DNA of 64,000 nt from Aureibaculum sp. 2308TA14-22 (GTDB taxonomy: Bacteria > Bacteroidota > Bacteroidia > Flavobacteriales > Flavobacteriaceae). Where the stretch lies: assembly GCF_040538665.1 (NCBI RefSeq), contig NZ_JBEWXT010000001.1:2816501-2880500 (forward strand), written 5' to 3'. The notes below the pieces were generated by a model. It was given only the letters and a program-made list of their open reading frames with translations. It searched no databases and had not been told where the DNA came from. This document shows, piece after piece, positions 33,739-64,000 of this stretch; within the stretch, counting starts at the first letter, position 1, and the number at the start of each line of letters is the position of its first letter. A program made the translations under genes and the position numbers.

Positions 33739-33775
33739 TTTAATATTATTTTATTTATTATTCAATATGCTTATG

Positions 33776-35857: not shown

Positions 35858-35871
35858 ATTTTTATTTTTCT

Positions 35872-35889: not shown

Positions 35890-35957
35890 TCAGTGATAAA
35901 TCTATAAAAAAAACCTCACCTAATTGTTGATTTATCTATTTCTTTTAAAAATTTAGA

Positions 35958-35988
35958 TTTAACCGACCCTGTTCACGAGTCGGTTAAA
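35958..35988 (-). terminator. Hairpin after the second susC-PL7 operon
   Basis: TTTAACCGAC and GTCGGTTAAA form a perfect 10-bp stem with an 11-base loop in the 184-bp gap between gntR and the PL7 gene. Read on the minus strand, where the PL7 operon ends 54 bases earlier, it is followed by TCTAAATTTTTAAAA. It is therefore a plausible terminator, though the U-run is imperfect. Confidence 0.55.
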
Positions 35989-36041
35989 GTCTAAAGGAAC
36001 TAACTCAACTATTTATCTTCTAATAAATTCTATTTTTTAGA

Positions 36042-44864: not shown

Positions 44865-45242
44865 CTATGACTTATCTCCAAAATAAGATACTCCATCACC
44901 ACTTAAGAAATCTTCTCTTACTGGACTAAAGGTGTCAATTAGCATCCCTTCTTCTAAGCAAACTGCACTATGCAATAAATTAGGTTCGATATATACTCCA
45001 TCTCCTGCTTCTACAATTTGTTTTACTCCATCAATTTCAAATTCAAATTTACCAGAAACACAATAGGTAGCTTGTGTGTGAAAATGTTGATGTGGAGCAC
45101 CTAATGCTCCTTTTTCAAATTTTACTTTTACCATCATGATTTGGTTATCGTAACCTAAGAATTTTCTTGATACTCCACCACCAAGTTCTTCCCATTGCAT
45201 GTCTTTTGTAATGATATACTTTTCACTAAATCGTTGTTTCAT
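44865..45242 (-). CDS. kdgF: KdgF-type cupin, unsaturated uronate ring-opening
   Basis: A 125-residue single-domain cupin. PHQHFHTQATYCVSGKFEFEIDG holds the metal-binding His/Gln set, and EPNLLHSAVCLEEG the last His. KdgF converts the cyclic 4,5-unsaturated monouronate released by exolyases into linear DEH. The ATG at 45242 was chosen over one 17 codons upstream (45293) because the family starts near here and the longer form would overlap the PL17 stop. It is the last gene of the PL6-PL17-kdgF operon, 19 bases after PL17. Confidence 0.9.
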   Translation of the reverse strand: MKQRFSEKYIITKDMQWEELGGGVSRKFLGYDNQIMMVKVKFEKGALGAPHQHFHTQATYCVSGKFEFEIDGVKQIVEAGDGVYIEPNLLHSAVCLEEGMLIDTFSPVREDFLSGDGVSYFGDKS

Positions 45243-45261
45243 ATGTTTATTTTTTTTGTTT

Positions 45262-47547
45262 TTATTTAAAATAATAAGAACCTGACCACTCATAATTCTT
45301 ATTGTTAATGTTTAAGTTATGTTTTGCTTCTTTTGAAGCATTAGTATTTGCTGTTATAAATATCTTGGTGTTATCACTTATAGTTGTTATTGCAATTGCT
45401 GTGTAATCTACTGTATCTAAAATTACTCGAATTTCTTTAATACTACTTTTTGAATTTACAGCAGATTCTGAAACCGGACTATAACTACCATGAGATTCAA
45501 TAATTGAAACAAAAGTTGTATTTTGTGAATTTTTTCTTCTTAATAGCATAGCAGGATCTCTTCTTAAATTAAATTCTGGGTCATTTGCTCCGATTCTTGT
45601 AAAAAACATTGCATCTTCAGTAGTAGTTAAAGTTGTTAAAGTGTAAAACTTGTTATTATTTAACCAAGAGAACTTTGAACTGTTGTTATCAGCTTTAGCA
45701 ATACCTTCCACAAATAAATGTTGGTAACCATTTTTGGTTCCTAATGGTTTTAATATTTGAGGTGTTGTATATTCAAAATTGGTTTGTAACACCTGTCCGA
45801 AATAGTAAAACGGCAAGTCATATTGATTCGATTTTTCTGAAATTACCTTCATAATATCCAACATAAAAGGCTTTTCAAATTCATCATCTTTAATGATTGC
45901 CATAGTGCGAAGCATTTCGGTTCCAGGGTATGCATTCTCTTCTTTTGCACTCACAACTTGCACACTTTCATTTTCTGATGAAAAATAATGTAAAACGGAA
46001 TGATATTGACTCCCGATTTCATACTTTCCATTAAAATGAGAGATTTCATTTTGTGTTACTGTATTATGAGCGATAGTTTGTTTTGCCCATGTTTTATTTT
46101 CCTTTAAGTAATTTCCACCACCTTTTTGTTCAATATTTACAAAACGTGCCAACCCATAATCTTGAATTACTTCTTCTCCATTTTCATATAATGAGTACGA
46201 TAACTTATCATAATGACCATGACTAGACCCTTGAGCAGCGTATTTAAAAACAAGTTCTAGCTCTTCGTTTCTTAATATACCAACTCCACCTTGTGTTCCA
46301 TCTGGTCCATCAGACAAATTAATTGATTTTTTATCAAATGGTTTGGCTTTCCCATTTTTTATACCCAATGCAACTGCCAAACCAGAATCATCTAATAAAA
46401 CCTGATTTTGTTCTTTTGCAATAGATAATAATCCTGGATCTTGTTCACCATAATGATAAGAAATATCTACGGCAGTAACTAAAGCATTATTATAATATGA
46501 CATTCCTTTTTGACCATCGTTGAGTGGAAAAAAATCGCCGTCTGCATCAGATAAATTAAGTAGTGCATTTATTGATTTTAAAAGTACACCATCTTTATAT
46601 TCAAAAATCTTTAATTCTGGTTTTACGTTATGTAATCCTTCAGCAAAAATTAAAAAAGGATACATTGCATAACGCTGATAATAGGGTCCTTCATTGTAAT
46701 AACCATCTGGCGAAAAAGGCTCTTCTATATTCGCTAAAAAACCCGCTTTTCCATCTTTATTTAAAAATCCACCATCATCATCTTTAGCCTTTGAATCCAA
46801 TTTTAAGTCCTTTATACCATACAAAGCACGATCTATTAATTCTTGGTCATCCATTACCAAACCAATCATACCAACTGCTGCATTACCCCAAGTACTATGA
46901 TTATGGACTCTCTGATAAAATTGTGGACTATCTACTGAAATATGGTCTGCGAAAGGTCTGAATAGATTAGTTTCAAGTTTGTTACGCTCTTCTTCAGATA
47001 AATAATTATAGATACAATCGTAAGCTTGGCTCACATAAACTAACCAATTAGAATCGTTTAAACATTGCCAGAATAATTTCCCTCTTGCATATGATCTTGT
47101 TTTTGGGTGTAATGGCAAGGTTTTATAAAGTTCCTCATATTGCATCAGCATATCTTTTACATACTTTGCATATTTTTCATCGTCCAAAATTTGATATAAA
47201 AGACCTGCTTTTTGTAGTACAAACCAATTACGTTTGTGTCTTACATGCGTGTAACCTCCAGAATAATCTTTAGGAATAGGCACCTCTATTCCTAAAGCAA
47301 TTTCGGCATCAATTTCTTCTTGAACTGCTTTCAGTGTGTTATCAAAAATTGGAATACTACCCAATTGTGCTCTAATATCTTTTACACCTTCAGAAGTAAG
47401 GATTAAACTTGGATGCTGAGACTCAGAATTTGCATTTGTTTTTTCATTTGCATTCGTTTTATTAGAAACATCTTTTTTACAAGAAAAAAGAATTAAGACT
47501 AAAAAAAGAATTAAAAACCTTGGTTTTATACATTTTGATGTTTTCAT
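45262..47547 (-). CDS. PL17 oligoalginate lyase, lipoprotein
   Basis: A 761-residue exo-acting lyase. The N-terminal (alpha/alpha) barrel (alginate-lyase domain, about 60-390) has the catalytic-site RVHNHSTWGNAAVG and YYNEGPYYQRYAMYP stretches. The C-terminal heparinase II/III beta-sheet domain has SSHGHYDKLSYSLYENG and AHNTVTQNE. PL17 releases unsaturated monouronate from alginate oligosaccharides. The start at 47547 puts a clean lipoprotein signal (FLILFLVLILFSC) near the N-terminus; an in-frame ATG eight codons upstream at 47571 is possible. KKDV after Cys lacks an acidic export signal, so it probably faces the periplasm. Confidence 0.92.
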   Translation of the reverse strand: MKTSKCIKPRFLILFLVLILFSCKKDVSNKTNANEKTNANSESQHPSLILTSEGVKDIRAQLGSIPIFDNTLKAVQEEIDAEIALGIEVPIPKDYSGGYTHVRHKRNWFVLQKAGLLYQILDDEKYAKYVKDMLMQYEELYKTLPLHPKTRSYARGKLFWQCLNDSNWLVYVSQAYDCIYNYLSEEERNKLETNLFRPFADHISVDSPQFYQRVHNHSTWGNAAVGMIGLVMDDQELIDRALYGIKDLKLDSKAKDDDGGFLNKDGKAGFLANIEEPFSPDGYYNEGPYYQRYAMYPFLIFAEGLHNVKPELKIFEYKDGVLLKSINALLNLSDADGDFFPLNDGQKGMSYYNNALVTAVDISYHYGEQDPGLLSIAKEQNQVLLDDSGLAVALGIKNGKAKPFDKKSINLSDGPDGTQGGVGILRNEELELVFKYAAQGSSHGHYDKLSYSLYENGEEVIQDYGLARFVNIEQKGGGNYLKENKTWAKQTIAHNTVTQNEISHFNGKYEIGSQYHSVLHYFSSENESVQVVSAKEENAYPGTEMLRTMAIIKDDEFEKPFMLDIMKVISEKSNQYDLPFYYFGQVLQTNFEYTTPQILKPLGTKNGYQHLFVEGIAKADNNSSKFSWLNNNKFYTLTTLTTTEDAMFFTRIGANDPEFNLRRDPAMLLRRKNSQNTTFVSIIESHGSYSPVSESAVNSKSSIKEIRVILDTVDYTAIAITTISDNTKIFITANTNASKEAKHNLNINNKNYEWSGSYYFK

Positions 47548-47573
47548 TCTTATTGTGTAACAAGTTTTCATAC

Positions 47574-49328
47574 TTACTGTATTAGTATTCTTTTAAATCC
47601 ATTATTAACTTTTAATATATACATGCCCTTAGAAAGGTTCGTTACATCTATTTTTCCGGTAGGTGAAGCGATATAATTTTGCTGTACAGTTCGTCCGAGT
47701 AAATCAAGAACTTTAATGGATCCTATATTTTCATTTTTTTTTGATAAGGTCAAATAGTTACCTTCTACTGGATTGGGAAATATTTTCAATTCTTCGTCTA
47801 GATTAAATTCAACTAGACTCAAGGTTTGATATGCACCAAAACCAATTTTTACACCTACATCAGCTTGCGAATAAGGCAGGTTTGTACCTACTGAATTAAA
47901 CTCTTCTGCACCAGCATCAAAGTCTGATGGTCTTAAGCCACCAAGGATGTCTACTGTTAAAAATGAGTATGACCCCAGTCCAGAATTTATGGCAGCACTT
48001 CCTGTTGCTAACCTATAAAAATTACTTCCACTAGATAGTAGCCCAGAAGTAACAGTTTGGTTAGAATTCACTCCATCTATTAAATCCCAATCTCCGTTCT
48101 GAGTTATGTTTCCTTCATAAATTGAAATTAAGGTAGGTGCTGTAGTTTCTTCTAAAGCAGAATCGCTAGAATTTAGCATTATATTATTTGCAATCACTAA
48201 GTTTTCTGGAGCTAATGTTAAATCGCTTTTAACCTTAGTTCCTACTCTTATTGCCAAGTCACAGTTAACTAGTGTATTATTTACTATTTGTACGTTTTTA
48301 ACTTGGTAATACTCATTTAATTCTGAATTCAGTTTTCCATTACTAACATTTATACCTCCTGTAGCACCAGAGCTATTACCATTTGGTTTTCTATGATTAA
48401 CACCTTCAATATAGTTGTTATATATTTTATGATCTTCACCTATAACTCGAATTCCACCTGAGAATGAATTATTATTGGCAAAAAAATAGTTACCATAAAC
48501 TTCAGTATTATTACCATGCCTTAAAGTTAGGGTTCCTTGATAATCTCTAAAAGTGTTGTTATAATATTTATTACTACCGCATTTGTTTGAAATGATTTCT
48601 ACTTCACCTGACCAATTATAGAAAAAATTATCATAGACTTCTGTAAATGAATCTGAAAGGGAAGTTGTACTCACCCCAATTCGTATAGCATCTTGATCAT
48701 TTAATCCATTAATATCATTACCTACAGGAACTCTATCGGCAAAATAGTTATGATGAATTTTAGAATAATCGGGAGTTGAGTTATTATGATTATCATTAAT
48801 AATACTGCCAACGCCATTTTTTCCAATGAAGGAAGAATAACTTACTTCGTTATATTCCCCATAAATAATAATCCATTTAAATTTAAGTGTTTCTTGACTT
48901 GCAGTACCATTATATGAATCAATCTTGATATTTCTAACGAGGCAATTTACGCAGTCATTATTACTCGTATCCCTAAACTCAATAATGGGTTCAATTTTGT
49001 CACCATCGGTTATAAGACCAGATGCATTTTGAAAAACAACGCCTTCAAAAATAATGTAAGAACCTCCCAAACTAATATTTGATCGACCTTCAAAAAATAC
49101 ACTTCCAGGAGTTTCTGCCTTAATCGTTATCGGGTTTGATGCCGTTCCAGTTTTATTGATATTAATTTGAACATCGGTCCATGTTTGGTTTGCCAATATG
49201 ATGGTTGTACCAGCTGAGGCATTGGATATAGCTGTGTTTAATTGAGAACTTGTTTCAACAAGTTGACCGTAAACCGACATACAGCATAAACAAATAATGA
49301 TACAAAAAGAAAGTAAAGATTTACTCAT
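47574..49328 (-). CDS. PL6 alginate lyase with type IX secretion sorting domain
   Basis: A 584-residue right-handed beta-helix enzyme of polysaccharide lyase family 6. The signal peptide is at 1-21 (SVYGQ). Catalytic Lys and Arg are at 249 and 270 (IISNKCGSN, TLTLRHGN), the 21-residue spacing known for PL6. The last 75 or so residues (LKIFPNPVEGNYLTLSK ... KGMYILKVNNGFKRILIQ) are a type A T9SS sorting domain, so it is secreted or displayed outside. It is the only gene here with such a tail. It is first in the PL6-PL17-kdgF operon behind a tandem operator. Confidence 0.93.
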   Translation of the reverse strand: MSKSLLSFCIIICLCCMSVYGQLVETSSQLNTAISNASAGTTIILANQTWTDVQININKTGTASNPITIKAETPGSVFFEGRSNISLGGSYIIFEGVVFQNASGLITDGDKIEPIIEFRDTSNNDCVNCLVRNIKIDSYNGTASQETLKFKWIIIYGEYNEVSYSSFIGKNGVGSIINDNHNNSTPDYSKIHHNYFADRVPVGNDINGLNDQDAIRIGVSTTSLSDSFTEVYDNFFYNWSGEVEIISNKCGSNKYYNNTFRDYQGTLTLRHGNNTEVYGNYFFANNNSFSGGIRVIGEDHKIYNNYIEGVNHRKPNGNSSGATGGINVSNGKLNSELNEYYQVKNVQIVNNTLVNCDLAIRVGTKVKSDLTLAPENLVIANNIMLNSSDSALEETTAPTLISIYEGNITQNGDWDLIDGVNSNQTVTSGLLSSGSNFYRLATGSAAINSGLGSYSFLTVDILGGLRPSDFDAGAEEFNSVGTNLPYSQADVGVKIGFGAYQTLSLVEFNLDEELKIFPNPVEGNYLTLSKKNENIGSIKVLDLLGRTVQQNYIASPTGKIDVTNLSKGMYILKVNNGFKRILIQ

Positions 49329-49531: not shown

Positions 49532-50299
49532 CTACATGTTGTAAACACCGCCATTGATATCCAGTGTAGCACCATTAATGAAGCCGTCATACTCGGATGC
49601 TAGATATAAAACCGCTCGTGCTACGTCAGCTGGGTTACCTGCTCGCCGGATTGGAATACCAGCAGTTGTTTCATTTGCGGATTCTTTTGTTGTATGAGTA
49701 TTGTGAAATGAAGTTCCAAGGATAAGACCCGGAGCAACGGCGTTGACCCGAATTCCTTGTGGTCCCAATTCTGAAGCTAATGCTCTTGTAAAAGTTAAAA
49801 TTGCACCTTTACTTGTTGCATAAGCTAATGATCCTGGATGACCACCTTTACGACCAGCCAATGATGCCAAATTAACAATACTGCTGTTCTTTTTTTTTGC
49901 CAAATATGGTGAGGCTGCTCTGGTAACAAACATCATGGAAGTTAAATTAATATCCATGACTTTATGCCAAAATTCGGTATCCATTTCACCAATCATTTTA
50001 CGTGCGACTAAAGATCCTGCATTGTTGATTAACACATCTAAACTACCAAATACGTCAACTGTTTTTTCTACAACTGCATTAGCATCTGTTTCATTGGTTA
50101 AATCACCACTTATAGCTATAGCTTGTTGACCATTACTTTTTGCATAATCCACTAATGCATTTGCTGAATCTGCACTAGAAAAATAGTGAATGGCAACATT
50201 TGCTCCGCTATCAATAAAGTGTTTAGAAATGGCTTCGCCAATACCTTGTGCACCAGCTGTGACTAATACGTTTTTAACTTTTAGTTTATGAGTTATCAT
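49532..50299 (-). CDS. SDR-family oxidoreductase, second probable DEH reductase
   Basis: A 255-residue classical SDR. It has cofactor motif TAGAQGIGEAISK, INNAGS and active site YATSKGA. The beta-2 loop (VAIHYFSSADSAN) differs from that of the SDR at 32974 (VVLNGIEDEAG), so the two may prefer different cofactors. It is the last gene of the seven-gene operon starting at the TIM-barrel gene. DEH reduction to KDG is the expected role; other keto-sugar acids are possible. Confidence 0.83.
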   Translation of the reverse strand: MITHKLKVKNVLVTAGAQGIGEAISKHFIDSGANVAIHYFSSADSANALVDYAKSNGQQAIAISGDLTNETDANAVVEKTVDVFGSLDVLINNAGSLVARKMIGEMDTEFWHKVMDINLTSMMFVTRAASPYLAKKKNSSIVNLASLAGRKGGHPGSLAYATSKGAILTFTRALASELGPQGIRVNAVAPGLILGTSFHNTHTTKESANETTAGIPIRRAGNPADVARAVLYLASEYDGFINGATLDINGGVYNM

Positions 50300-50310: not shown

Positions 50311-51408
50311 TTATTTTGCTTTATCGTTTTTACTGAAATAACCTTCGTTAGACACCGTATTTTCGCTAACTTTAATGCTTCCTGACTTAAACCAAACCTC
50401 AGCATAGTTGCCATCTGCATATTGTTTTTTAACATCACCTCCATGAGTCTCTGCACCAGAACACCAGTTTCTATTTTCTTCAGGTGATTTACCATTCGTT
50501 TGATTATAAGCACCAAGTTTAAAAAAACAACCTTCGCTCGCATAAGCCTCTTTTCGTTCCACACCATCTTGACCAATTGGAAAAAATAATTTCTGAATTT
50601 GTTCTGGGATATCTGCTTTTGTTGCGTATTCCGATTCGATTAAGTTTTTGGTAAAGGTTTTGGTTTCGTGTCCTTCACTAGTAAATGTTAAGTGCATGAT
50701 GCCATCTTTTACTTCAACTTCATAACTAAATTCCTCACCCAAAGCAATTCCATCTTTTGGTTCTTCGGGATAGGTATTTGCTGAATCTCCAACTACTGAA
50801 AAATCGTGTCCCCAAACGGCTGTTGAAAAATCCCATCGTCCTGAATTATCATCACCTCTTGTATTGATTTCATAATGCCAAAACACTGAGCCTTTAGTAT
50901 GACCAGGAAACTTTTTGTAGAATATCTTTAATGGTTCGTTTTCATGTCCATCTGCACTATGGATTTGACCTACTACTACTGAATGCGAAGCTGCAACGCG
51001 AGCATCACCAGTTGCAGAGACATTCATTACTTTTAATGTTGCTGATAATTTATCGTTAGCAGCCTTAGGATACCATTTTTTGATTTGTGCTAATTCTGTT
51101 CTGGTATTATTAGATGTCCCATGTGTGTTTCCACCATTTGGTGTTTTAAACACGACCCAATCTCCTAGGCTGTCTGTTGCTGTGTAAAAGTAATCTTCAT
51201 GTTCAAATGAATTAGCGATGCCGACATTAGCTCCATCTCCTAAAATTAATTTCCAATGATCAAAAAACGGAATCACATTACTTGCATATAATGTTTCCTC
51301 TTTTTCTTCGATTATATCTTCTACTTTCTTATCTGTGTTTTTACAACTATTCAAAATAAAAAAAGCACTTAGAATAATAAGTGATGATATTGTGATTTTT
51401 TTTTTCAT
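50311..51408 (-). CDS. PL7 alginate lyase, lipoprotein (paralogue A)
   Basis: A 365-residue PL7 enzyme with lipoprotein signal ILSAFFILNSC. PL7 motifs: NTRTELAQ for the Arg motif, VVVGQIHS for QIH, and CFFKLGAYNQ for the YFKAG-type motif. GHTKGSVFWHYEINTRG and the surrounding parts match the second lipoprotein PL7 at 54598 closely, so the two are paralogues within one operon. The QIH form suggests G or mixed alginate. KNTDKK after Cys argues against surface export. Confidence 0.92.
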   Translation of the reverse strand: MKKKITISSLIILSAFFILNSCKNTDKKVEDIIEEKEETLYASNVIPFFDHWKLILGDGANVGIANSFEHEDYFYTATDSLGDWVVFKTPNGGNTHGTSNNTRTELAQIKKWYPKAANDKLSATLKVMNVSATGDARVAASHSVVVGQIHSADGHENEPLKIFYKKFPGHTKGSVFWHYEINTRGDDNSGRWDFSTAVWGHDFSVVGDSANTYPEEPKDGIALGEEFSYEVEVKDGIMHLTFTSEGHETKTFTKNLIESEYATKADIPEQIQKLFFPIGQDGVERKEAYASEGCFFKLGAYNQTNGKSPEENRNWCSGAETHGGDVKKQYADGNYAEVWFKSGSIKVSENTVSNEGYFSKNDKAK

Positions 51409-51419: not shown

Positions 51420-52694
51420 TTAAAAATACTCTGTTAATGCCATTATTCCGTTATACGAAATTACTAGTGAAAAGAACAATGCAGCAAACAAGCCTATATT
51501 TATCCAAAATCCAGTTTTATGACCTTTCATAACCTTTTTGTTATTCACAATTAAAATAATACCTAAGACTACAGCTGGTAAAACAAATACATTAAATACT
51601 TGTGATAATATTTGAACTTCAATTGGATTAGCTCCAAAAGCTGGACCAATTAAAGCGACTAAACAGGCTATAAACGTAATAATTCTGAATTGCTTTGAGT
51701 TTGTATCTAATTCACCAGATTGATAATCAGCAATTAATAAAGGAGCAATTAATAAACACGGAAAAATAGAAGATAAACCAGCACTCAAAGCACCAAAAAA
51801 GAATATTGTCACTGCCCATTTACCTGCAACTGGCTCCAATGTATTTGCCATGTCTAAGACTTGTGTTACCTCTTTTCCTTGATAATACAACGCTCCAGCA
51901 GCAACTGCCATAATTACACCACTAATCATAAAAATTAAAATGGCAGCTGTAATAGAATCCTTTTTTTGCTGATCCAAATTTTTAATGGTCCATCCTTTTC
52001 CTTTCACAAATAATGGTCTAGACAAAAATGTAGCGGAAGCCATAGTAGTACCTACAAAGGCGGCTACCAACATTTTACCACCTGGAATATCTGGAACAGT
52101 AGGTATTAATCCTTTAACAACATCTAACGGCAAGGGTTGCACAAAAAACAATGATAGCACAAACGAGAGCCCCATCATGGTTACAAAAATAACGAGAATC
52201 TTTTCGAAAAAGGTGTACTTTCCTACCAACAATAGTAGATAAAATATTACAATTACCGTAATGGCAATTATTAGTATCGTTTCATATTCATAAGCTCCCA
52301 AACCTTCAAAATTCAATGCTAAAATCTCGTAGATAATGTTAGCTGAAATACCTAAGATTCCCATTAAAGAATTCCATTGTCCAAATGTGACTCCTATTAT
52401 AATTAATATTGCTAATGTTTTACCATATTTTAAATGTTTTTTAAATCCATAAAGTGCAGTTTGGCCAGTTATTAATCCGTAATTTCCGTATACAAACATC
52501 AATATTCCTGAAAACAAACAACTTAAAAAAAGCACCCATAATAACTGCATATTAAACTTACTACCTGCAACAATCATAGAGGTAACACTACCTGTTCCAA
52601 TAGTATATCCAATAGCAAAAATACCAGGACCAAACCCTAATATTATGTCCATAATTTTTTTAAGAAATGATGCTTTTGTTCGATTGGCTTCCAT
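51420..52694 (-). CDS. NRAMP-fold transporter lacking metal-binding motifs (second copy)
   Basis: A 424-residue polytopic protein related to that at 28483-29736. The helix-1 DPGN motif is replaced by TIGTGS (31-36) and the helix-6 MPH by ASA in VGTTMASATF (214-223). It keeps PLPLDVVKGLIPTVPD (about 188-203), also found in the first copy. With no metal ligands it should not transport Mn2+ or Fe2+. It lies between a PL7 lyase and the gluconokinase/6PGDH fusion in an alginate operon, spaced 11 and 15 bases, so a sugar-acid substrate is likely. That is inference. Confidence 0.75.
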   Translation of the reverse strand: MEANRTKASFLKKIMDIILGFGPGIFAIGYTIGTGSVTSMIVAGSKFNMQLLWVLFLSCLFSGILMFVYGNYGLITGQTALYGFKKHLKYGKTLAILIIIGVTFGQWNSLMGILGISANIIYEILALNFEGLGAYEYETILIIAITVIVIFYLLLLVGKYTFFEKILVIFVTMMGLSFVLSLFFVQPLPLDVVKGLIPTVPDIPGGKMLVAAFVGTTMASATFLSRPLFVKGKGWTIKNLDQQKKDSITAAILIFMISGVIMAVAAGALYYQGKEVTQVLDMANTLEPVAGKWAVTIFFFGALSAGLSSIFPCLLIAPLLIADYQSGELDTNSKQFRIITFIACLVALIGPAFGANPIEVQILSQVFNVFVLPAVVLGIILIVNNKKVMKGHKTGFWINIGLFAALFFSLVISYNGIMALTEYF

Positions 52695-52709: not shown

Positions 52710-54593
52710 TTAGTTCCAGTTGGTGTGATAATTTTTTCCAGAAGAATCATCTAAACGTTGATAGGTATGTGCTCCAAAATAATCACGTTGTGCTTGTATG
52801 ATGTTAGCGGATGCATACTTTGTTGTTATTCCGTTTAAAAATTGAATAGCTTCACTTAACGCTGGAATTGTTATTTCATTAATCACACATTGCGACACTA
52901 CTTTTTTAGCTGAATGATTGTATTGATTTATGCGTGAAATGAATTCTTGATGTGCTAATATATTTGTGGTGTTTTTAAAAACTTTAACCAGCTCATACAT
53001 TAATGAAGATTTTATAATGCAACCGTTGGTCCAGATTCTTGCAATTTCACTAAAGTTTAAATCCCATGAAAATGTAGCTGACGCCTCAGCAATCAATTTA
53101 AACCCTTGATAATGATTAATAATTCTAGCAAATTGGTAAGCTTCTAAAATGTCTTTGGTTGTAAGATTTAATTCTGAAGTATCTGATTTTTTAAATATTG
53201 AATGTAACTGAACTCGTTCCTCTTTATAAAAAGACAAGTATCTTGAAAATAAAGCTGAAGCAATTAACGTACTTGGCACGCCTAATTCTGCTGAAGCAAT
53301 GGTCATCCAGTTTCCTGTCCCCTTATTACCAGCTTTATCTAGAATTTTATTTACCAACCAATCATCACCTTCCTTTTTCCTGAAAACGGTAGATGTAATA
53401 TCCAATAAGTAACTACTTGCAGTATTTTTCCAACTTTCAAAAATATTAGCAATATCGTCTGGATTGTTGCCTAAAGCTTTTAAAATTGTAGCAACTTCAG
53501 TCAATAATTGCATTTCTACATACTCTATACCATTGTGCACCATTTTTATAAAATGACCACTGCCCTCTGGTCCAACATAGGTACAACACGGTAAGTTGTT
53601 TTGGTCTTTTGCTGCAATTTTTTCTAAAAAAGGCTTCACCTTATTATAAGCTTCTAAATCTCCACTTGGCATGATAGATGGTCCATTTAACGCACCTTCT
53701 TCACCACCTGAAACACCTGCTCCAATAAAATGAATGCCTTTATTTTTTAAATAATTATTTCTTTCTTTCGTATTTTGATAATTTGAATTTCCGCCATCAA
53801 TTAATATATCGTTTTCAGATAAATGTGGTAGTAAGTCTTCAATCACATAATCAATAGTTTTACCAGCATTTACCATAAACATGATGCGTCTTGGTTGTTG
53901 TAAAGAATTTACAAAAGCTGAAATATCATCAAAAGCAGAAGCTTCAGATAATTCAGGATGATTGGCTTTAAATTTTTTAGCAACGTTGACCTCAACATCT
54001 TCTAAATGTCTGTTAAACATGGAGATTTTAAATCCGTTATTGGCTAGATTTCTGCACAAGCTTTTTCCCATAACGCCAAGTCCAAATAATCCAAATTCTG
54101 AGGTGTATTCTAATTGATTTTTCACTTGGTCTATAATTTCTTTAGATTTTAGACTGACATCTATTGTTATAGCATTTTCTGGGTTTTCGAGAGTATCAAA
54201 TTGAGATTTCAGTAATTCTGAAGGCATAAAATGACCTGTTCTATTGTTCAACCTTTTAAAAATCTGATCGAATGTCCCTGACAAATGCACCCATTTGGTT
54301 TGACTTTCAATACCTGAACTCAGCGTATCACGATACTTTTGCTTTAACGCAGAACAGCCAATAACACAACTGTTTTTTGCTAGTTCTTGTTTTGCCAGAT
54401 CATTTAAAGTTTCTAACCAACCTTGTCTGTCATTATCATTTAACGACTGTCCTTTAGACATTTTTTTGATATTACTTTCTGGATGAAAGTCGTCACCATC
54501 AAAAAAAGGAATACTTAATTCTTCTGCAAGTAATTTTCCTATAGTGCTTTTTCCACTTCCTGAAACGCCTATGATGAAGATTACTTCGTTCAA
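52710..54593 (-). CDS. Gluconokinase / 6-phosphogluconate dehydrogenase fusion
   Basis: A 627-residue bifunctional protein. Residues 1-160 are a GntK-type kinase: P-loop GVSGSGKST (9-17), FDGDDFHPESN, and GHFMPSELLKSQFDTLE. Residues 165-627 are a full-length decarboxylating 6PGDH: GLFGLGVMG (168-176), cofactor-selecting FNRH, GGNSNYQNT, GVSGGEEGAL and catalytic GHFIKMVHNGIEY. Together they would turn gluconate into ribulose-5-phosphate with reduction of NADP. Both halves keep their key residues. In this operon it may supply NADPH for DEH reduction, or act on another aldonate; both are inference. It begins four bases after the PL7 at 54598. Confidence 0.92.
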   Translation of the reverse strand: MNEVIFIIGVSGSGKSTIGKLLAEELSIPFFDGDDFHPESNIKKMSKGQSLNDNDRQGWLETLNDLAKQELAKNSCVIGCSALKQKYRDTLSSGIESQTKWVHLSGTFDQIFKRLNNRTGHFMPSELLKSQFDTLENPENAITIDVSLKSKEIIDQVKNQLEYTSEFGLFGLGVMGKSLCRNLANNGFKISMFNRHLEDVEVNVAKKFKANHPELSEASAFDDISAFVNSLQQPRRIMFMVNAGKTIDYVIEDLLPHLSENDILIDGGNSNYQNTKERNNYLKNKGIHFIGAGVSGGEEGALNGPSIMPSGDLEAYNKVKPFLEKIAAKDQNNLPCCTYVGPEGSGHFIKMVHNGIEYVEMQLLTEVATILKALGNNPDDIANIFESWKNTASSYLLDITSTVFRKKEGDDWLVNKILDKAGNKGTGNWMTIASAELGVPSTLIASALFSRYLSFYKEERVQLHSIFKKSDTSELNLTTKDILEAYQFARIINHYQGFKLIAEASATFSWDLNFSEIARIWTNGCIIKSSLMYELVKVFKNTTNILAHQEFISRINQYNHSAKKVVSQCVINEITIPALSEAIQFLNGITTKYASANIIQAQRDYFGAHTYQRLDDSSGKNYHTNWN

Positions 54594-54597: not shown

Positions 54598-55626
54598 TTA
54601 ATTTTTATTTGGTTCAGTACTTTTGCCTACAGTTGCTTCTTTAAACCAAACTTCTGCATAGCTTCCGTTTTTATATTGTTTTGTAATGTCTCCACCATAG
54701 GTTTCTGATTTGGTAGATTCACCATTTGCTTGATTATACGCACCCTGTTTAAAGTAATTGAGTTCACCCGCATAAGCTGTCTCACGTTCAACTCCACCTC
54801 CTTTTTCTCTATTTTCATACACTTTGATTACTTGTTCAGGAATATCTTCTTTTGTTGCAAATTCTGATTTAACTAGGCTTTTAGTGTACTTAATAGTTTC
54901 ATGACCTTCACTTTTAAAAGTTAAATACATTATGCCTTGATGTACGTTGACTTCGTAACTAAACTCTTCACCTAAAGTGATTCCATCATTTGGCTCTTCT
55001 GGATATTCTGTTGGACTTGAACCAACTACAGAAAAATCGTGTCCCCAAACTGGTGATGAGTAATCAAATCTGCCAATATTGTCGCCTTCTGTATTAATCT
55101 CATAATTCCAAAACACAGAACCTTTTGTGTGTCCAGGAAATTTTTTGTAATAAATTTTTAGTGGTTCGTTTTCATGACCTTCGTCACTATGTATTTGTCC
55201 AATGACCACTGAAAAGGAAGATGCTCTAGTAGCATCTCCTGTAGTGGAAACATGCCGTACTTTTAACGTTCCTGTTAATTTTCCTCCAGTCTCTGGTATC
55301 CAATGAGCTTTTTGACCTAATTCTGTTCTGGTGTTACTTGAAGTTCTTGAAGTGATACCTGAATTTGGTGCTTTATAAACTACCCAATTCGTTTTTCCAT
55401 CGTTTTCCACATAAAAGAAATCGTCTTTTTGGTAATTTACCAAATCATCAACATATGTTCCATCACCTAAAAGAACTTTCCATTGATCCATAAACGGAAT
55501 GACTTCACTTGGGTATTTTACTGTTTTTTCAGTTTCAACTTCAGCTTTTGTTTCCGTTTTTTTTGCTTCGCTTTTACATGAAAAAACTGTAAAAATTATG
55601 AGTATAATGTATAATGCTTTTTTCAT
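54598..55626 (-). CDS. PL7 alginate lyase, lipoprotein (paralogue B)
   Basis: A 342-residue PL7 lipoprotein (signal LIIFTVFSC). Motifs: NTRTELGQ, SVVIGQIHS and NYFKQGAYNQ. It shares its length, domain limits and most sequence with the PL7 at 50311, apart from a shorter insert before the third motif. It should be an alginate lyase with QIH-type preference. KSEAKK after Cys suggests a periplasmic face. It lies 65 bases after the PL6 gene; the gap holds a short palindrome. Confidence 0.92.
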   Translation of the reverse strand: MKKALYIILIIFTVFSCKSEAKKTETKAEVETEKTVKYPSEVIPFMDQWKVLLGDGTYVDDLVNYQKDDFFYVENDGKTNWVVYKAPNSGITSRTSSNTRTELGQKAHWIPETGGKLTGTLKVRHVSTTGDATRASSFSVVIGQIHSDEGHENEPLKIYYKKFPGHTKGSVFWNYEINTEGDNIGRFDYSSPVWGHDFSVVGSSPTEYPEEPNDGITLGEEFSYEVNVHQGIMYLTFKSEGHETIKYTKSLVKSEFATKEDIPEQVIKVYENREKGGGVERETAYAGELNYFKQGAYNQANGESTKSETYGGDITKQYKNGSYAEVWFKEATVGKSTEPNKN

Positions 55627-55691: not shown

Positions 55692-58028
55692 TTAATACAT
55701 TAGAGTCATAACTAAATTTTCTTCACTCTTAATTTGTCCCGAATTGATTATTGTGTTATCTGAGGCTACATTGTTTTTAGCTCCCCAAAGAATAGAAATA
55801 AATTGTACAGGATTGTTTTTAAACGTGTTTTTTGTAATATTTACATTCACAATACCATTATGATTAAATAGTCTTTTGTTTTTCTCTTTTACACCACAAT
55901 TGGTAAAAGTGCTGTTAGATACTAAAAGGTTTCCTCCAATAGTAGACTCGTCATAGCCACCTCTATAATAATCAATAACATTTTGTTTTACGTTATTGAA
56001 ATTACAATTGTCAATCGTTAAATATTCAGTGTTATAATCACCTCTATCGTTTGTTTCTTCAGATAATTCTATTCCATTTTCACAATTTGAAATGGTAGTG
56101 TTTTCAAAAGTTACACGTTCAGAAAAGGATTGTTTATACACTTTTAAAACATAATTAAAATCGCTTATATCAGAATTTGAAACCGATAATCCGAAATGGT
56201 TAGACATATTCTCTTTTAAACTAGCAAATGCATAATTAGAAGCGTTTCCTTTAAGTTTAACGTTTTTTAGAGATAATTTTCCATAAGGATTCAAAGAAAA
56301 AGCTGGTGTGTTTGCGACTCCTTCATATATAATTTCGGTATTCCCTTTAGATTGAATTGTTATTGTTTTATCAATAATTAAAGATTCTGAAATCTCGAAA
56401 ACTCCATCGTTCAATTCTAAAACATCTTCACTTTCAGCTTCTTGAAGTTTAGCTATTAATTCGGAAGTATTAGAAACCTCATGTGTCTTAGCCTCTTTGG
56501 TTTCTATTTCATTTGAATACCAATCAGCACCATAATTGGCTTTATTTAAAATATCTAAATTGATATTTTCTACATTTAAAATCGCACCTATTTGATTTGA
56601 TTTACCTCTCGAATTTCCTAATAAATCATGAGTAATTGTTTCAAAATCAAAACCTTTATAAACTTCTATATCTTCGAAACCAGAAGTTGGAACAGAAATA
56701 TTTGTACCAATATCTGTTAAAGATAATTCTTTAGAAATTAAACCATGACCGTTTGTAATTTCAACACCGTTATTGTAAATAATATTACTTGCAAAAGTTA
56801 CACCATCGGCTTTGTCGTATTCTATAATTGGATTGGCATCACCAACAGAATTATATATTACATTATTTACAACTTCTGTTCTTAATGGTCTGGCCGAACG
56901 AATTTCTGATTTAGGCAAAACATCCGCTTGCGAAATGTTTGTACCAACTCCAAACTGCCAAGGCGAATCTGAATCTACAAAAGTATTGTAAGCAACTACC
57001 ACATCTGTAACCTGATTATATCTATTTAATGGCGACTTTGGAATTCCATTCATAATTGCTATGGGACTTCTAAAGTTCTTTCCTTTTATTTTATAAAAAA
57101 GATTATTTATAACCCAATGGCCTGTGTTAATAATTCTAATTCCACCATATTGATCATTCTCGCCATCACCAATAAAATAATTACCATCCACCGTAACGTA
57201 GTTGCCATGACGTGTTACCACAGAACCTTCACTTTTATAAAACACATTGTTTTTTATGATGTTGAAATTAGTCTTGCTCGATATAATTTCTACTTCTCCG
57301 TTACATTCTTCAAATAAATTATTGGCAATCGTTGTATTACTAGGTGACATAGATGTGAAACTACTTCCTAATTGAATTGTTTCTCCTCTTGCTCCACCTT
57401 TTCTTGGTCTTGGGCCAAAATGATTATTTATAATTTTATGATAGTTTCTTATACTTTGGTTTCCCTTTAAATCTACCCTAACTGTTGGCCCGCCATTAGT
57501 TTTACCAGCAATATAACAGTTGCTTAACTCATTGTATTTTCCGTAGAATTGTACCCAAAGATTATCTTGATCTCTTTCTAAATTATTGAAATCTAGAATG
57601 ACACAATTTGTAACTTTAGAGTGATTTGCAACTTCTTTGTCACTGGTTCTAAAAGCAATTACGTTAGTTTTAGGCGAATAACCATTTCTAAAAAACAAAC
57701 CACTTACTTCTAAATAATTTCCACTAAGTTCTAAACTAGAAACACCTTCAATAAAAACTTTTCCAGGTGTTTCAGCCTTAATTGTGATTGGGTGTGCTTT
57801 TGTGCCATCTCCAGTAAATTTTATTTGAATATCTTTCCAAATACCATTGGCCATTACAATATTATCTCCGGGTTCGGCGTCCAAAATTGCTGATTCCAGT
57901 TCGGAAATATTCTTTACAGTGTTTGTTTTAGTCTCAAGTTTATCTTTACAGCTAAACATCAAAATCATTAAACTTACAAAAATTAGGTTCCTATTAATAC
58001 ACATTTTATAATTTGAAATATTATTCAT
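55692..58028 (-). CDS. PL6 alginate lyase with second beta-helix domain, lipoprotein
   Basis: A roughly 778-residue lipoprotein (signal LIFVSLMILMFSC). The N-terminal PL6 beta-helix at about 40-480 has catalytic Lys in IISSKTNFN and Arg in VVTRHGN, 21 residues apart as in other PL6 enzymes. The rest, about 510-778, is a second parallel beta-helix (SNTSELIAKLQEAESEDVL start), the two-domain layout of PL6 enzymes such as AlyGC. Three in-frame ATGs are possible (58043, 58028, 58004); 58028 is chosen for its A-rich upstream site, but 58004 gives the shortest signal. KDKLETK after Cys suggests a periplasmic face. Confidence 0.9.
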   Translation of the reverse strand: MNNISNYKMCINRNLIFVSLMILMFSCKDKLETKTNTVKNISELESAILDAEPGDNIVMANGIWKDIQIKFTGDGTKAHPITIKAETPGKVFIEGVSSLELSGNYLEVSGLFFRNGYSPKTNVIAFRTSDKEVANHSKVTNCVILDFNNLERDQDNLWVQFYGKYNELSNCYIAGKTNGGPTVRVDLKGNQSIRNYHKIINNHFGPRPRKGGARGETIQLGSSFTSMSPSNTTIANNLFEECNGEVEIISSKTNFNIIKNNVFYKSEGSVVTRHGNYVTVDGNYFIGDGENDQYGGIRIINTGHWVINNLFYKIKGKNFRSPIAIMNGIPKSPLNRYNQVTDVVVAYNTFVDSDSPWQFGVGTNISQADVLPKSEIRSARPLRTEVVNNVIYNSVGDANPIIEYDKADGVTFASNIIYNNGVEITNGHGLISKELSLTDIGTNISVPTSGFEDIEVYKGFDFETITHDLLGNSRGKSNQIGAILNVENINLDILNKANYGADWYSNEIETKEAKTHEVSNTSELIAKLQEAESEDVLELNDGVFEISESLIIDKTITIQSKGNTEIIYEGVANTPAFSLNPYGKLSLKNVKLKGNASNYAFASLKENMSNHFGLSVSNSDISDFNYVLKVYKQSFSERVTFENTTISNCENGIELSEETNDRGDYNTEYLTIDNCNFNNVKQNVIDYYRGGYDESTIGGNLLVSNSTFTNCGVKEKNKRLFNHNGIVNVNITKNTFKNNPVQFISILWGAKNNVASDNTIINSGQIKSEENLVMTLMY

Positions 58029-58064
58029 TTTTATTAAAATCATTAAGTTTAAAACTAGTCTTTG

Positions 58065-59015
58065 TTATGCATTTTTCCAAAATTCTTGAATGGTCGATAA
58101 ATCTTTTTTCATAGCGTTAAATACCTCTTTTTTATCAATTGAAATTTTCTTTTTTCCTTTTTCCGCACCTCCCAAATCGTATTCAAGATGAAGTGACACA
58201 GGTGGATTTAATTGATATTTCTTAAGGAGCTTAAAATATTTGTCAAAATCAACCATACCTTCACCTATAGGTGTATTAACAGCTTTCCATTTACCGTTTA
58301 TCTTACCCCATTTAAAATCTTTTAATACTATAGTTTTGATATGAGACTTAAGAAGTTGTAAGCCGTTTTCCCAGGAAAATCCACCTTCAACCATGGCATG
58401 GCGGATATCATATTGTGTGCCAAAATAATCTGATTCTACGGTTTCTAAAATTTTCTTTATTTCCCAAAATGAAGCACCTACACTAGTTCCCGCATGATTT
58501 TGATAACATCCAATCAATCCCAACTCTTTATTTACTTCACCTAATTCCTTAATTTGAGTTTGGTATGTTTCTAGTGCTTCTTGCAATAATTGGTCATTAG
58601 GATATTTAAACCAATTGGTTCTATAATATTTTACTCCCGACGCTGAAGTCGCCTCCAACACATCCATATCAAGAGGATTGTTGACACTTTCAATACTCGT
58701 AGTAATGAGTTCACAATTTGAACCGCCTTCTTTAATCTCTCTTACTGCTTTGGGTAAATCGGTTTTAACTGAATGTGGTAATACATGACCTTTTGGCCTA
58801 ACCGTTAAATCAACACCAGAAAATCCCATTTCAGCTGCCATTTCACCGGTATTTCTGTAATCTAAAAATTGGAGGTGTTTAGAAAAAATATTGACTGAAA
58901 GTTCTTCTTCTGAATTTGTTTCGGCCCATAATTCTAGAGGTACACTCATAAAGGGAATTAGACTTGCCGATAAGCAAGTTTTCTTAATAAAATCTCTTCT
59001 TGAAGTAGGGCTCAC
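58065..59015 (-). CDS. Tat-exported TIM-barrel sugar isomerase/epimerase-like protein
   Basis: A 316-residue protein with a twin-arginine signal (TSRRDFIKKTCLSASLIPF) and a xylose-isomerase-like TIM barrel at about 40-300. Features: MGFSGVDLTVRPKGHVLP, GCYQNHAGTSVG, GTQYDIRHAMVEGG and LKDFKWGK. Metal-ligand-type acidic and His residues are present. Such proteins act on sugars or sugar acids outside the cytoplasm. It is the first gene of the seven-gene alginate operon and follows a double operator. The exact reaction is unknown. Confidence 0.8.
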   Translation of the reverse strand: MSPTSRRDFIKKTCLSASLIPFMSVPLELWAETNSEEELSVNIFSKHLQFLDYRNTGEMAAEMGFSGVDLTVRPKGHVLPHSVKTDLPKAVREIKEGGSNCELITTSIESVNNPLDMDVLEATSASGVKYYRTNWFKYPNDQLLQEALETYQTQIKELGEVNKELGLIGCYQNHAGTSVGASFWEIKKILETVESDYFGTQYDIRHAMVEGGFSWENGLQLLKSHIKTIVLKDFKWGKINGKWKAVNTPIGEGMVDFDKYFKLLKKYQLNPPVSLHLEYDLGGAEKGKKKISIDKKEVFNAMKKDLSTIQEFWKNA

Positions 59016-59028
59016 TGTAAATTATAAA

Positions 59029-59080
59029 TTGGTTTACCAGTTTGGTTTACCAAATATATGTATATTTGTTTGTTACACAA
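59029..59080. promoter_or_regulatory. Bidirectional promoter with double tandem operator
   Basis: TGGTTTACCA at 59030-59039 and 59043-59052. On the minus strand a full promoter is present: TTG (plus-strand CAA 59078-59080), 19 bases, then TATATTTG (59051-59058) running into the operators, for the TIM-barrel operon. On the plus strand TATATTTG at 59061-59068 serves the RraA-family gene, with the operators over its -33 region. One array could control both directions. Confidence 0.78.
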
Positions 59081-59107
59081 TGGTTTTATATCAATAATTT
59101 ACAAAGT

Positions 59108-59824
59108 ATGCCAACATTATCAAAAAATTCTCGTGAAAAATTACAAAAAATAAGTACTGCAACTATTGCAACATGCCTTTTTAAAAAAGGGCTAAAAAAT
59201 CAGTTTATTCAGAATGTAGTACCACTTAAAAAAGGCAAACTTAATATGGTAGGAGAAGCATTCACCTTAAGATATATTCCTGCGAGAGAAGATTTAAACC
59301 ATATTGGTGTTTTTACTGACCCAAAACATCCACAACGCGTTGCGGTAGAAACTTGTCCTAAGGGAGCTATATTAGTTATGGATAGTAGAAAAAATGCAAG
59401 AGCAGCTTCTGCGGGTTCTATTTTAGTTACGAGATTAATGAAACGCGGTGTTGCTGGAATTGTTACGGATGGAGGATTCAGAGACTCGGCTGAAATAGCT
59501 GAATTAAATATTCCTTCTTATCATCAACGTCCTTCTGCTCCTACAAATTTGACTTTACATCAAGCTTTAGATATAAATATTCCTATAGGCTGCGGAGATG
59601 TTGCTGTATTCCCTGGTGATGTTTTGGTTGGTGATGATGATGGCGTAATGGTAATTCCTTCAGAAATAGTAGATACTGTTGCCAATGAGTGTACAGAAAT
59701 GACGGTTTATGAAAATTTTGTGTTGGAAAAGGTAAATGAGGGTCAGTCTATTATCGGTTTGTATCCACCAACAAATGAGGAAACTCTGGTTGCATTTGAA
59801 AATTGGAAAGCGGACAAATCGTGA
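59108..59824 (+). CDS. RraA-family protein (HMG/CHA aldolase-like)
   Basis: A 238-residue protein of the RraA/class II pyruvate-aldolase family. Features are ISTATIATCLFKKGLKNQ near the N-terminus, GAILVMDSRKNARAASAGSI, GIVTDGGFRDSAEI (the DGGxRD metal/substrate motif) and GDVLVGDDDGVMVIP. Members include 4-hydroxy-4-methyl-2-oxoglutarate aldolases and a regulator of RNase E. The DGGxRD motif supports an aldolase or decarboxylase here. The ATG at 59108 is used; an upstream start at 59042 would lie inside the operator. Its shared regulation suggests a keto-acid side step in uronate catabolism. Confidence 0.82.
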   Translation: MPTLSKNSREKLQKISTATIATCLFKKGLKNQFIQNVVPLKKGKLNMVGEAFTLRYIPAREDLNHIGVFTDPKHPQRVAVETCPKGAILVMDSRKNARAASAGSILVTRLMKRGVAGIVTDGGFRDSAEIAELNIPSYHQRPSAPTNLTLHQALDINIPIGCGDVAVFPGDVLVGDDDGVMVIPSEIVDTVANECTEMTVYENFVLEKVNEGQSIIGLYPPTNEETLVAFENWKADKS

Positions 59825-59901
59825 ATATTATAAATATCTTTAATTTTTAAATTAGATTTGAATTTTTCCAAAAAGAGAAATACAAATAAAATAAGTAATG
59901 G

Positions 59902-60618
59902 TCACTTCGCAATATCCCCGTGAGCAGGCTTTATTATTATATCTTTGAAATAAACTACCATATTAGGTCCTTTATGAACTTGTAAAGCGATAACACCTCC
60001 ATCCGATTTCTTACTAATTTCCCTGTCAATAACATCAATGGTCTTTTTACCATTAATAAAATGTTGTAAATGGTTTTCTTTAGCAACGATTCTATAATTA
60101 TTCCATTGATCTTGATTAATTATAGCCTGGATATTTTCACTCTTTTCAAATTGCTCAACTGTTTTCTTTCCATCTTCATTAATAGTAATTTTCTCTCCCC
60201 TTAATGCCATTATCCCTCTCCCATTTTCCTCATATAAAATTCCTGAATATTGAATTCCTGCCTCCATGTCTGCCTGATACCCAGCCACAGCAAAATCATC
60301 TTCACCCAAAACTTTAGCACGGTATTGAATGCCGCTATTGCCGCCTACAATTTTATATTTTAAGTTCAATTCAAAATCAGAAAACGAAGATTCATAAATT
60401 AAAAATGTGTTCTTATCTATCTTAATCTCATCGGTAGTTCGACCTACAATGCTGCCTTCTTCAACAGACCAAACACGAGCATCTCCTCTCCAATTATCAA
60501 GATTCTTTCCGTTGAATAAGGAAATGGTTTTTGAATCAACTTCTTCTTTTGCCTTTTCAGATTTACATGATACCGTGATGACACAAATCAATAAAACGAT
60601 CAACTTTAATTTTTTCAT
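59902..60618 (-). CDS. DUF1080 (3-keto-disaccharide hydrolase-like) lipoprotein
   Basis: A 238-residue lipoprotein (signal LKLIVLLICVITVSC) with a DUF1080 concanavalin-like domain at about 30-235. Features are SLFNGKNLDNWRGDARVWSVEEGSI, NSGIQYRAKVLG and GVIALQVHKGPNMVVYFKDI. Some members hydrolyse 3-keto-glycosides. The ATG at 60618 is chosen because it gives a clean signal; a longer frame reaches 60687 but would overlap the upstream gene by 62 bases. It lies seven bases after the cytochrome-bearing gene, one operon. Confidence 0.87.
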   Translation of the reverse strand: MKKLKLIVLLICVITVSCKSEKAKEEVDSKTISLFNGKNLDNWRGDARVWSVEEGSIVGRTTDEIKIDKNTFLIYESSFSDFELNLKYKIVGGNSGIQYRAKVLGEDDFAVAGYQADMEAGIQYSGILYEENGRGIMALRGEKITINEDGKKTVEQFEKSENIQAIINQDQWNNYRIVAKENHLQHFINGKKTIDVIDREISKKSDGGVIALQVHKGPNMVVYFKDIIIKPAHGDIAK

Positions 60619-60625
60619 TTCATAT

Positions 60626-63259: not shown

Positions 63260-63425
63260 TTTAGAAATTTATAAGGTTTAATAACAATATTACTTTAATT
63301 AATTGTTAAATTTATTGAATTCTCATTACAATTCTTCAAATACTATCAAGTTTCAGGTATTTTCTTTTGATTATTAAAAGAAACTTAAACTAATTGTTAA
63401 AAAGATTTGTAGTTAAAACTATTAC

Positions 63426-64000
63426 TTAATCTTGTAAGGTTGGTACTAACGAATTTCTGATTCCCATTTCCAATCCACATAATTCAGCGAGACCCTTCAT
63501 TCTCCCAAGCGTTGAGTAACCTGGGTAAAACTCATCTTTAATACCGACATCACTTAACAACAAATGACCATGATCTGCTCTTAGAGGTATAGCTACGTCT
63601 TTACTATTTTCATATTTTCTCCTAATCTGCTCCTTAACTATAAATTCCATGACTTTTGCCATAGGTGCACTACCTTCTAAATGGTTAGCCTCATAAAAAC
63701 TTCCATCCTTTTCTAATTGAACACTTCGCAGATGTAAAAAATGAACTTTATTTGCAAAAGCATTAAAAATTTTAATCAAATCATTTTCCTTTTTGGCTCC
63801 TAATGAGCCTGTACAAAATGTTAGTCCATTGTAATAAGATGAGGAACAGTTTAAAAGAAATTTAATATCACTGCTATTACTTACAATTCTAGGTAAACCT
63901 AAAATAGGATATGGTGGATCGTCTGGGTGGACGCACATCTTAACTCCTAGTTTTTCTGCTTCTGGAATAATAGCTTTTAAAAAATAAACCAAATTTTCTT
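63426..64000 (-). CDS. uxuA: Mannonate dehydratase, C-terminal part (truncated by window)
   Basis: The last 190 or so residues of UxuA, which dehydrates D-mannonate to KDG. Clear family parts are YFLKAIIPEAEKLGVKM, CVHPDDPPYPILGLPRIV, NGLTFCTGSLGA, HFLHLRSVQLEKDGSFYE and IPLRADHGHLLLSD, holding metal-binding His, Cys and Asp. The frame stays open to the window edge, so the N-terminal half lies beyond 64000. It would feed the same KDG kinase and aldolase used for alginate. Confidence 0.9.
   Translation of the reverse strand, partial: ENLVYFLKAIIPEAEKLGVKMCVHPDDPPYPILGLPRIVSNSSDIKFLLNCSSSYYNGLTFCTGSLGAKKENDLIKIFNAFANKVHFLHLRSVQLEKDGSFYEANHLEGSAPMAKVMEFIVKEQIRRKYENSKDVAIPLRADHGHLLLSDVGIKDEFYPGYSTLGRMKGLAELCGLEMGIRNSLVPTLQD

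Follow-up and report, generated by a model that had tools for sequence, protein, structure and literature searches.

The window analysed here, a 64,000-nucleotide stretch of the genome of Aureibaculum sp. 2308TA14-22 (Flavobacteriaceae; contig NZ_JBEWXT010000001.1, positions 2,816,501 to 2,880,500), carries an alginate operon in which a gluconokinase is fused to a 6-phosphogluconate dehydrogenase (6PGDH). The fused gene spans 52710–54593 on the minus strand; its frame starts with TTG and runs for 627 codons without an internal stop. Residues 1–158 (54120–54593) form a GntK/IdnK-type gluconokinase, and residues 164–627 (52713–54104) a full-length decarboxylating 6PGDH. On the same strand, 4 bp upstream, lies an alginate lyase of polysaccharide lyase (PL) family 7 (PL7c, 54598–55626; PF08787, 173 bits). 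Downstream are a Nramp-family membrane protein, hereafter Nramp* (51420–52694; Pfam Nramp, 214 bits), a second PL7-type alginate lyase (PL7b, 50311–51408; PF08787, 174 bits) and a short-chain dehydrogenase/reductase (SDR2, 49532–50299), all on the minus strand. The gaps in this run of genes are 4, 15, 11 and 11 bp, and PL6, PL17-type and cupin genes come after it.

The kinase half scores 172 bits over residues 6–156 on the NCBIfam gluconokinase model TIGR01313 (cut-off 113.75) and aligns with the solved structures 3t61 and 1knq; it keeps the main motifs of GntK/IdnK gluconokinases, and differs from them in being joined to a 6PGDH. The dehydrogenase half (residues 165–627) scores 525.8 bits on TIGR00873 (cut-off 426.7) and 536.6 on NF006765 (cut-off 413), and aligns with 7cb0 and 2iz0 over its full length, at about 40% identity and with the catalytic residues kept. 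Unlike a typical 6PGDH, it possesses an N-terminal kinase, and it belongs to a genome in which glucose-6-phosphate dehydrogenase (G6PDH, encoded by zwf) was not found. The AlphaFold model (23 orthologues; mean predicted local distance difference test score 89.9, predicted template modelling score 0.75) shows two folded domains separated by a linker of about 5 residues, at about 162–166. When this model was submitted to Foldseek, all 50 matches listed were 6PGDHs, the best 20 with 38–41% identity and template modelling scores, normalized to the target, of 0.90–0.93.

Near-full-length matches were found in the best 80 of 517 relatives in GTDB genomes. The pair is a single frame in 77 of these 80, which excludes an assembly or frameshift artefact, and two adjacent frames in the other three (L070, L071 and L073). 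All 75 alginate-linked sequences aligned share the kinase P-loop and residues D32, D34, H37, D55, R56, W59, K84, R88, H121, Q131 and E136, while some other kinase motif positions vary. The 6PGDH residues K350, N354, E357, R603 and H609 are kept in these 75 sequences and in all 37 sequences from the GntP side, GntP being the gluconate permease; I take the roles of the catalytic Lys/Glu and the C-terminal Arg/His to be those of sheep 6PGDH. The region that bears on NADP+ preference reads N194-R195 in 75 of 75, followed by His in 61 and Glu in 13. The tested active-site residues are thus alike in both settings; the exceptions are few and belong to GntP-side sequences. The original prediction, made from the sequence alone, described a two-domain chain of 627 residues with both active sites intact, set in an alginate operon. 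The domain scores, alignments and model confirm the first point, the conservation of the tested residues bears out the second, and the PL6, PL7 and PL17-type lyase genes all around the fusion support the third. Judged from its sequence, the enzyme very probably converts gluconate to ribulose-5-phosphate.

The Aureibaculum genome is 3.57 Mb long and 99.7% complete. The fusion is its single match to PF00393, and also its single match to TIGR01313 (FGGY-type gluconokinases were not searched for). No match was obtained for PF02781, the G6PDH family (Edd was not searched for), nor for GntP (PF02447) at E ≤ 1e-20 (other gluconate carriers were not searched for); the kinase has PL7 and Nramp genes as neighbours, and no adjacent GntP. 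A canonical role in the oxidative pentose phosphate pathway, starting from glucose-6-phosphate, is rejected since zwf was not found. Because both zwf and GntP were not found, alginate is the likeliest source of gluconate for this enzyme.

In order to place the fusion in its family, 199 Flavobacteriaceae genomes were surveyed, evenly drawn from 198 genera; the genera are not independent, and the counts are uncorrected for relatedness. 6PGDH is present in 102 genomes, and 52 possess a kinase–dehydrogenase pair, fused in 32 and split side by side in 20, as told by frame length and position. None of the 52 pair genomes encodes zwf, against 46 of the 50 other genomes with 6PGDH (Fisher P about 1e-24). 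There are 53 pair loci, as one genome (G017) has two; 41 were read and 12 placed by coordinates. The pair has GntP as neighbour in 34 loci, Nramp* in 11, a PL7 gene only in one (G138), and neither in 7. Of the 12 alginate-type pair genomes, 2 encode GntP at any position (G031 and G138), as do all 40 other pair genomes. Judging by these 34 loci and 40 genomes, the pair usually constitutes a gluconate operon, and the gluconate permease is missing from most genomes of the alginate type. Gluconokinase is found in 98 genomes. GntP is missing from 12 of them, of which 11 have the kinase adjoining Nramp* in an alginate locus (the exception is G085). The original prediction held that a fusion widespread outside uronate loci, with ordinary gluconate activity alone and no effect of its deletion on growth on alginate, would speak against it; the survey goes halfway towards this, with the fusion in an alginate locus in 11 of the 32 fused genomes and next to GntP in 18 of the 21 others. 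Frames of at least 600 amino acids occur in 7 of 203 Bacteroidota genomes, within the family in G000, G109 and G283 and outside it in G271, G314, G333 and G383.

The GntK–Gnd–GntP operons of Flavobacteriaceae, fused or split, encode the same two enzymes with the same tested residues, also in genomes without zwf, and the alginate-linked version differs in having Nramp*, lyases and often SDR2 in place of GntP. The loci of the 80 best matches, which as nearest relatives of the fusion are biased toward the alginate type, have Nramp* directly downstream of the pair in 67 cases, a lyase gene like those of the window in 66, and GntP in 4. One of them (L074) holds the fusion, Nramp* and GntP together, and five (L043, L047, L060, L061 and L064, Kordia algicida for example) have the fusion, Nramp* and SDR2 with no window-type lyase in the fetched stretch. 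In two loci (L022:8194–9906 and L041:8202–9914), the gene that immediately precedes the fusion encodes an IlvD/EDD-family dehydratase, which may act on gluconate or another aldonate. A two-piece match to kinase and 6PGDH (L142; 37.7% identity, 97% coverage) lies on the 1.8 Mb plasmid of Vibrio sp. THAF64, from a marine aquarium, in a stretch without annotated genes.

Two genomes differ in what fills the slot of the fusion. G146 encodes zwf, and a canonical gnd outside its alginate locus. Within that locus a stand-alone gluconokinase, 62% identical to the window kinase half, lies between PL7c and Nramp*; no 6PGDH remnant was found in the 18 kb stretch of this locus. That a kinase alone occupies the slot of the fusion suggests, from this one genome, that the locus needs gluconate phosphorylation and that the dehydrogenase can come from elsewhere. 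In G021 this slot is empty and PL7c is followed by Nramp* (L100); another locus of that genome (L101) holds a split pair next to GntP. A tree quickly built from 119 pairs, several of its branches being long, requires only 3 label changes for the 73 alginate/Nramp rows (mean of 37 when shuffled), which lie amid GntP-type rows; the root was not inferred, and the order with GntP first comes from midpoint rooting. The pair would thus have been recruited into the alginate locus from a GntK–Gnd–GntP operon. A divergent GntK-like family, often found near PL6 genes, has two members in alginate loci where the genome contains zwf (L082:2722–3207 and L090:17875–18375); these were rejected as stand-alone gluconokinases and left uncounted. 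Neither possesses the GDxxHP or the DxDR motif. The one in L082 reaches 66 bits, short of the 113.75 cut-off, and the one in L090 is absent from the matches listed at E ≤ 1e-15. Hits to this family below the cut-off are also present in G001, G010, G066, G089, G157 and G192.

Another short-chain reductase of the window, SDR1 (32974–33738, minus strand), possesses Glu39-Asp40 and is by similarity a FlRed-type, NADH-dependent reductase of the main pathway, acting on 4-deoxy-L-erythro-5-hexoseulose uronate (DEH). Inoue et al. describe this acidic pair as a feature of the NADH-dependent DEH reductase FlRed (PMC4306948), whose reported Km is 0.037 mM for NADH and 0.98 mM for NADPH (PMC8563752). SDR2 belongs to the SDR family, like FlRed and the A1-R enzyme of Sphingomonas A1, and lies in an alginate operon; unlike FlRed, it has Ser-Ser at the position of the pair (59 of 59 sequences), and it is 39% identical to SDR1. 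Its identification as FlRed was rejected, SDR1 being the one of FlRed type. FlRed is reported to be practically inactive on the other substrates tried (PMC4306948), although the authors of another study suspect insufficient concentrations in those assays (PMC6011931).

SDR2 (E ≤ 1e-80) is present in 21 of the 199 genomes. All 21 also have PL6 (E ≤ 1e-40), which is found in 50 of the 199, and gluconokinase, which is found in 98 of the 199. Among the 51 genomes with SDR1, SDR2 occurs in 20 of the 37 with gluconokinase and in none of the 14 without (P 2.5e-4), and Nramp* (at least 67% identity in this comparison) in 28 of 37 and again in none of 14 (P 6e-7), kinship being uncorrected in both tests. 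Ten loci hold an RbsD/FucU-family gene, from a family that includes mutarotases, and each of them has it directly downstream of SDR2. It scores over the Pfam cut-off and under both NCBIfam equivalog cut-offs; such a neighbour fits a cyclic aldose as SDR2 substrate. ManD, a D-mannonate dehydratase, scores over its cut-off in L023, where it adjoins the fusion, and in the alginate locus L036, with copies 90% identical in L058 and 79% identical in L084. Beyond the family, five alphaproteobacterial plasmids encode SDR2 relatives of 47–49% identity; four of these adjoin or neighbour a DUF4962 gene, presumably lyase-like, three of the four also a carbohydrate ATP-binding cassette transporter, and the fifth has neither. 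ManD is annotated near two of the five. A scan of viral contigs did not find SDR2. I regard SDR2 as a candidate L-guluronate reductase, which could instead be a second DEH reductase.

Nramp* belongs to the sequence family of the Nramp/NRMT transporters (7qia, 10ky). Aligned to 10ky, its DPGN motif in transmembrane helix (TM) 1 is replaced by GTGS and its TM6 MPHN by M-A-S/A-A, in all 79 homologues of at least 60% identity, and Arg226 is invariant. DPGN and the TM6 MPH being, as I take them, metal ligands, transition-metal transport appears unlikely; the cargo may, as a guess, be an anionic sugar, which makes Nramp* a candidate uronate or aldonate transporter. Alginate operons that do not contain the fusion also have it beside KdgA, KdgK and SDR1. 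For Alteromonas 76-1, the alginate systems are drawn with a Nramp, labelled as a metal-ion transporter, and a second FabG-like oxidoreductase (PMC6431674). A plasmid search with Nramp* returned one distant match (36.8% identity). The window encodes a second Nramp-family protein (28483–29736), 40% identical and also with GTGS for DPGN, beside a ManA-like isomerase and near the 2-keto-3-deoxy-6-phosphogluconate (KDPG) aldolase; matches at E ≤ 1e-120 occur in 4 of the 199 genomes, its own included.

The remaining genes of the operon, all on the minus strand, encode two PL6-type lyases (PL6b, 55692–58043, PF14592 677 bits; PL6a, 47574–49328, PF14592 227 bits), an oligoalginate lyase which I take to be of PL17 type (45262–47571; PF07940 88.5 bits, PF05426 59.5 bits) and a cupin, presumably KdgF-like (44865–45293; Cupin_2 44.8 bits). 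The main pathway is encoded at 29995–36968, with KdgA, KdgK, SDR1, a major facilitator superfamily protein, an FCD/GntR regulator and a PL7 lyase. Here the KDPG aldolase (29995–30663, minus strand) scores 386 bits on NF005499 (cut-off 275) and matches PF01081, and the probable kinase for 2-keto-3-deoxy-D-gluconate (KDG; 30709–31749, minus strand) has 105 bits on PfkB and 489 bits on the kinase part of the fusion model NF041633, under that model's cut-off of 700. At the window end lies a truncated UxuA D-mannonate dehydratase (63426–63998, minus strand; PF03786, 185 bits), whose substrate would be D-mannonate, that is, reduced D-mannuronate.

Fischer projections give the chemical link between alginate and gluconate. 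Reduction of the C1 aldehyde converts L-guluronate to D-gluconate and D-mannuronate to D-mannonate, and the controls behave as expected (D-glucuronate gives L-gulonate, D-galacturonate gives L-galactonate). Gluconate is therefore one step from alginate. Farmer and Eagon reportedly described, in 1969, the reduction of D-mannuronate to D-mannonate and its dehydration to KDG; both routes reduce C1 of a saturated uronate, that one for mannuronate and the present one for guluronate, leading to gluconate. SpsADH (A1-R), a DEH reductase of the SDR family from Sphingomonas A1, is reported to oxidise D-gluconate to L-guluronate in vitro, with kcat/Km relative to KDG of 79% for D-gluconate and 37% for D-mannonate (PMC6011931). 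This reduction, which SpsADH runs in reverse, was overlooked in the original statement that no alginate product is known to be gluconate. As for the saturated uronates, exo-lyases are reported to yield saturated mannuronate and guluronate monomers, and a Flammeovirga PL7 enzyme to release both from saturated chains (PMC5809466). Phrase searches of an open-access library gave no account of a guluronate reductase, nor of a gluconokinase–6PGDH fusion or a 6PGDH tied to alginate lyase loci.

From these elements the following pathway can be proposed. Lyases would free saturated L-guluronate from alginate chain ends, and Nramp* or another carrier would import it. SDR2 would then reduce the C1 aldehyde with NADPH to give D-gluconate, which the kinase half would phosphorylate with ATP to 6-phosphogluconate. 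The 6PGDH half would carry out the oxidative decarboxylation of the latter to ribulose-5-phosphate, CO2 and NAD(P)H, and the NADPH could return to SDR2. D-mannuronate would follow a parallel branch through D-mannonate to KDG, by UxuA or ManD. That the gluconate for the fusion derives from L-guluronate by this whole chain is the best single explanation, to which I give about an even chance.

Several observations weigh against it. For gluconate, SpsADH is reported to have a Km of 12 mM and a Vmax of 2 U/mg, versus 462 U/mg for DEH reduction, and the figures given here for gluconate are for the oxidation direction (PMC6011931). Each chain has few saturated ends, which may keep the flux small. SDR2 (at least 75% identity) is found in just 48 of the 80 fusion loci, and PL6 also in 9 of the 40 genomes whose pair lies outside alginate loci. 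SDR1 itself tends to occur together with gluconokinase (37 of 51; P 1.6e-4, the genera not being independent), and 8 genomes with both have neither SDR2 nor Nramp*. The 14 SDR1 genomes without gluconokinase indicate that the branch is dispensable for keeping alginate genes; a genome of the window's own genus (G103) has SDR1 and PL6 with no match to gluconokinase, 6PGDH, SDR2 or Nramp*. The main doubt concerns SDR2, as its plasmid relatives could be DEH reductases; they could instead be uronate reductases, as ManD suggests.

The fusion might simply burn environmental gluconate, with Nramp* replacing GntP and the alginate operon as a mere site of co-expression. The 34 of 53 pair loci adjoining GntP, the equality of the tested residues in the two settings and the combination of fusion, Nramp* and GntP in L074 would all agree with this. 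Such scavenging nevertheless appears improbable, since Nramp* sits beside KdgA, KdgK and SDR1 in alginate operons that have no fusion, SDR2 and Nramp* track gluconokinase among alginate-pathway genomes, and the fusion is interleaved with lyase genes at gaps of 4–15 bp. The supply of NADPH to a DEH reductase, as the original prediction had it, is unlikely with SDR1 of NADH type, and could hold only with SDR2 as a second DEH reductase, of NADPH type, for which the fusion regenerates NADPH from gluconate of unspecified origin. The missing acidic signature of SDR2, its 47–49% relatives beside lyase-like genes on alphaproteobacterial plasmids, and its position four genes from the fusion with gaps of at most 15 bp are consistent with that role. 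It would however require one gluconate per DEH from an unnamed source, the main DEH reductase is NADH-type, and it leaves unexplained why G146 has a kinase but no 6PGDH in that slot of the locus; I hold it to be unlikely on balance.

SDR2 could also be a glucose 1-dehydrogenase, glucose being converted through gluconate to 6-phosphogluconate as a substitute for the missing zwf. SDR2 does score 222.6 on the broad "glucose 1-dehydrogenase" subfamily NF005559 (cut-off 215), as three plasmid relatives also pass, and zwf was not found in its genome. This model is unspecific, however, as SDR1 reaches 205.5, SDR2 is confined to PL6 genomes, and 8 of the 21 SDR2 genomes do encode zwf, which makes a glucose bypass highly unlikely. 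Finally, the fusion may act on another aldonate, D-mannonate or similar, as the nearby mannonate dehydratases might suggest; these would already process mannonate, and the tested active-site residues match those of the GntP-operon relatives, so that I consider this barely credible. The original proposal of an aldonate made from saturated chain ends is thus retained for the saturated ends, and its other aldonate is unlikely. Derivation of gluconate from L-guluronate through SDR2 remains the explanation I favour.

Other genes near the alginate genes deserve mention. Beside the operon, 58065–63998 encodes TIM-barrel isomerase-like, RraA-like, 3-keto-disaccharide-hydrolase and cytochrome c proteins, up to the truncated UxuA. 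The RraA-family protein (59042–59824; PRK08245 subfamily) recurs near alginate genes in related loci, and the RraA-family FlDet is reported to belong to an oxidative DEH route (PMC8563752). Genes for 403–414 amino acid proteins near KdgA in alginate operons were considered as ManD and rejected, since the three scanned (L086:15545, L088:7538 and L089:16170) match phosphofructokinase-like models, under the family cut-offs.

The usual alginate route handles every residue as unsaturated DEH. The fusion, SDR2 and perhaps a Nramp-fold protein turned carrier of organic acids may tentatively be viewed as an unreported reductive branch of alginate breakdown, in which L-guluronate would be mutarotated before its reduction and the redox balance of the cycle would be neutral, and as the sole 6PGDH route in cells without G6PDH, a view to which I give somewhat less than an even chance. 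If true, it would name the fate of saturated guluronate in alginate breakdown, and give a purpose to the second SDR and the so-called metal transporter of alginate operons. It would also explain why 6PGDH is kept without G6PDH in many marine Flavobacteriaceae.

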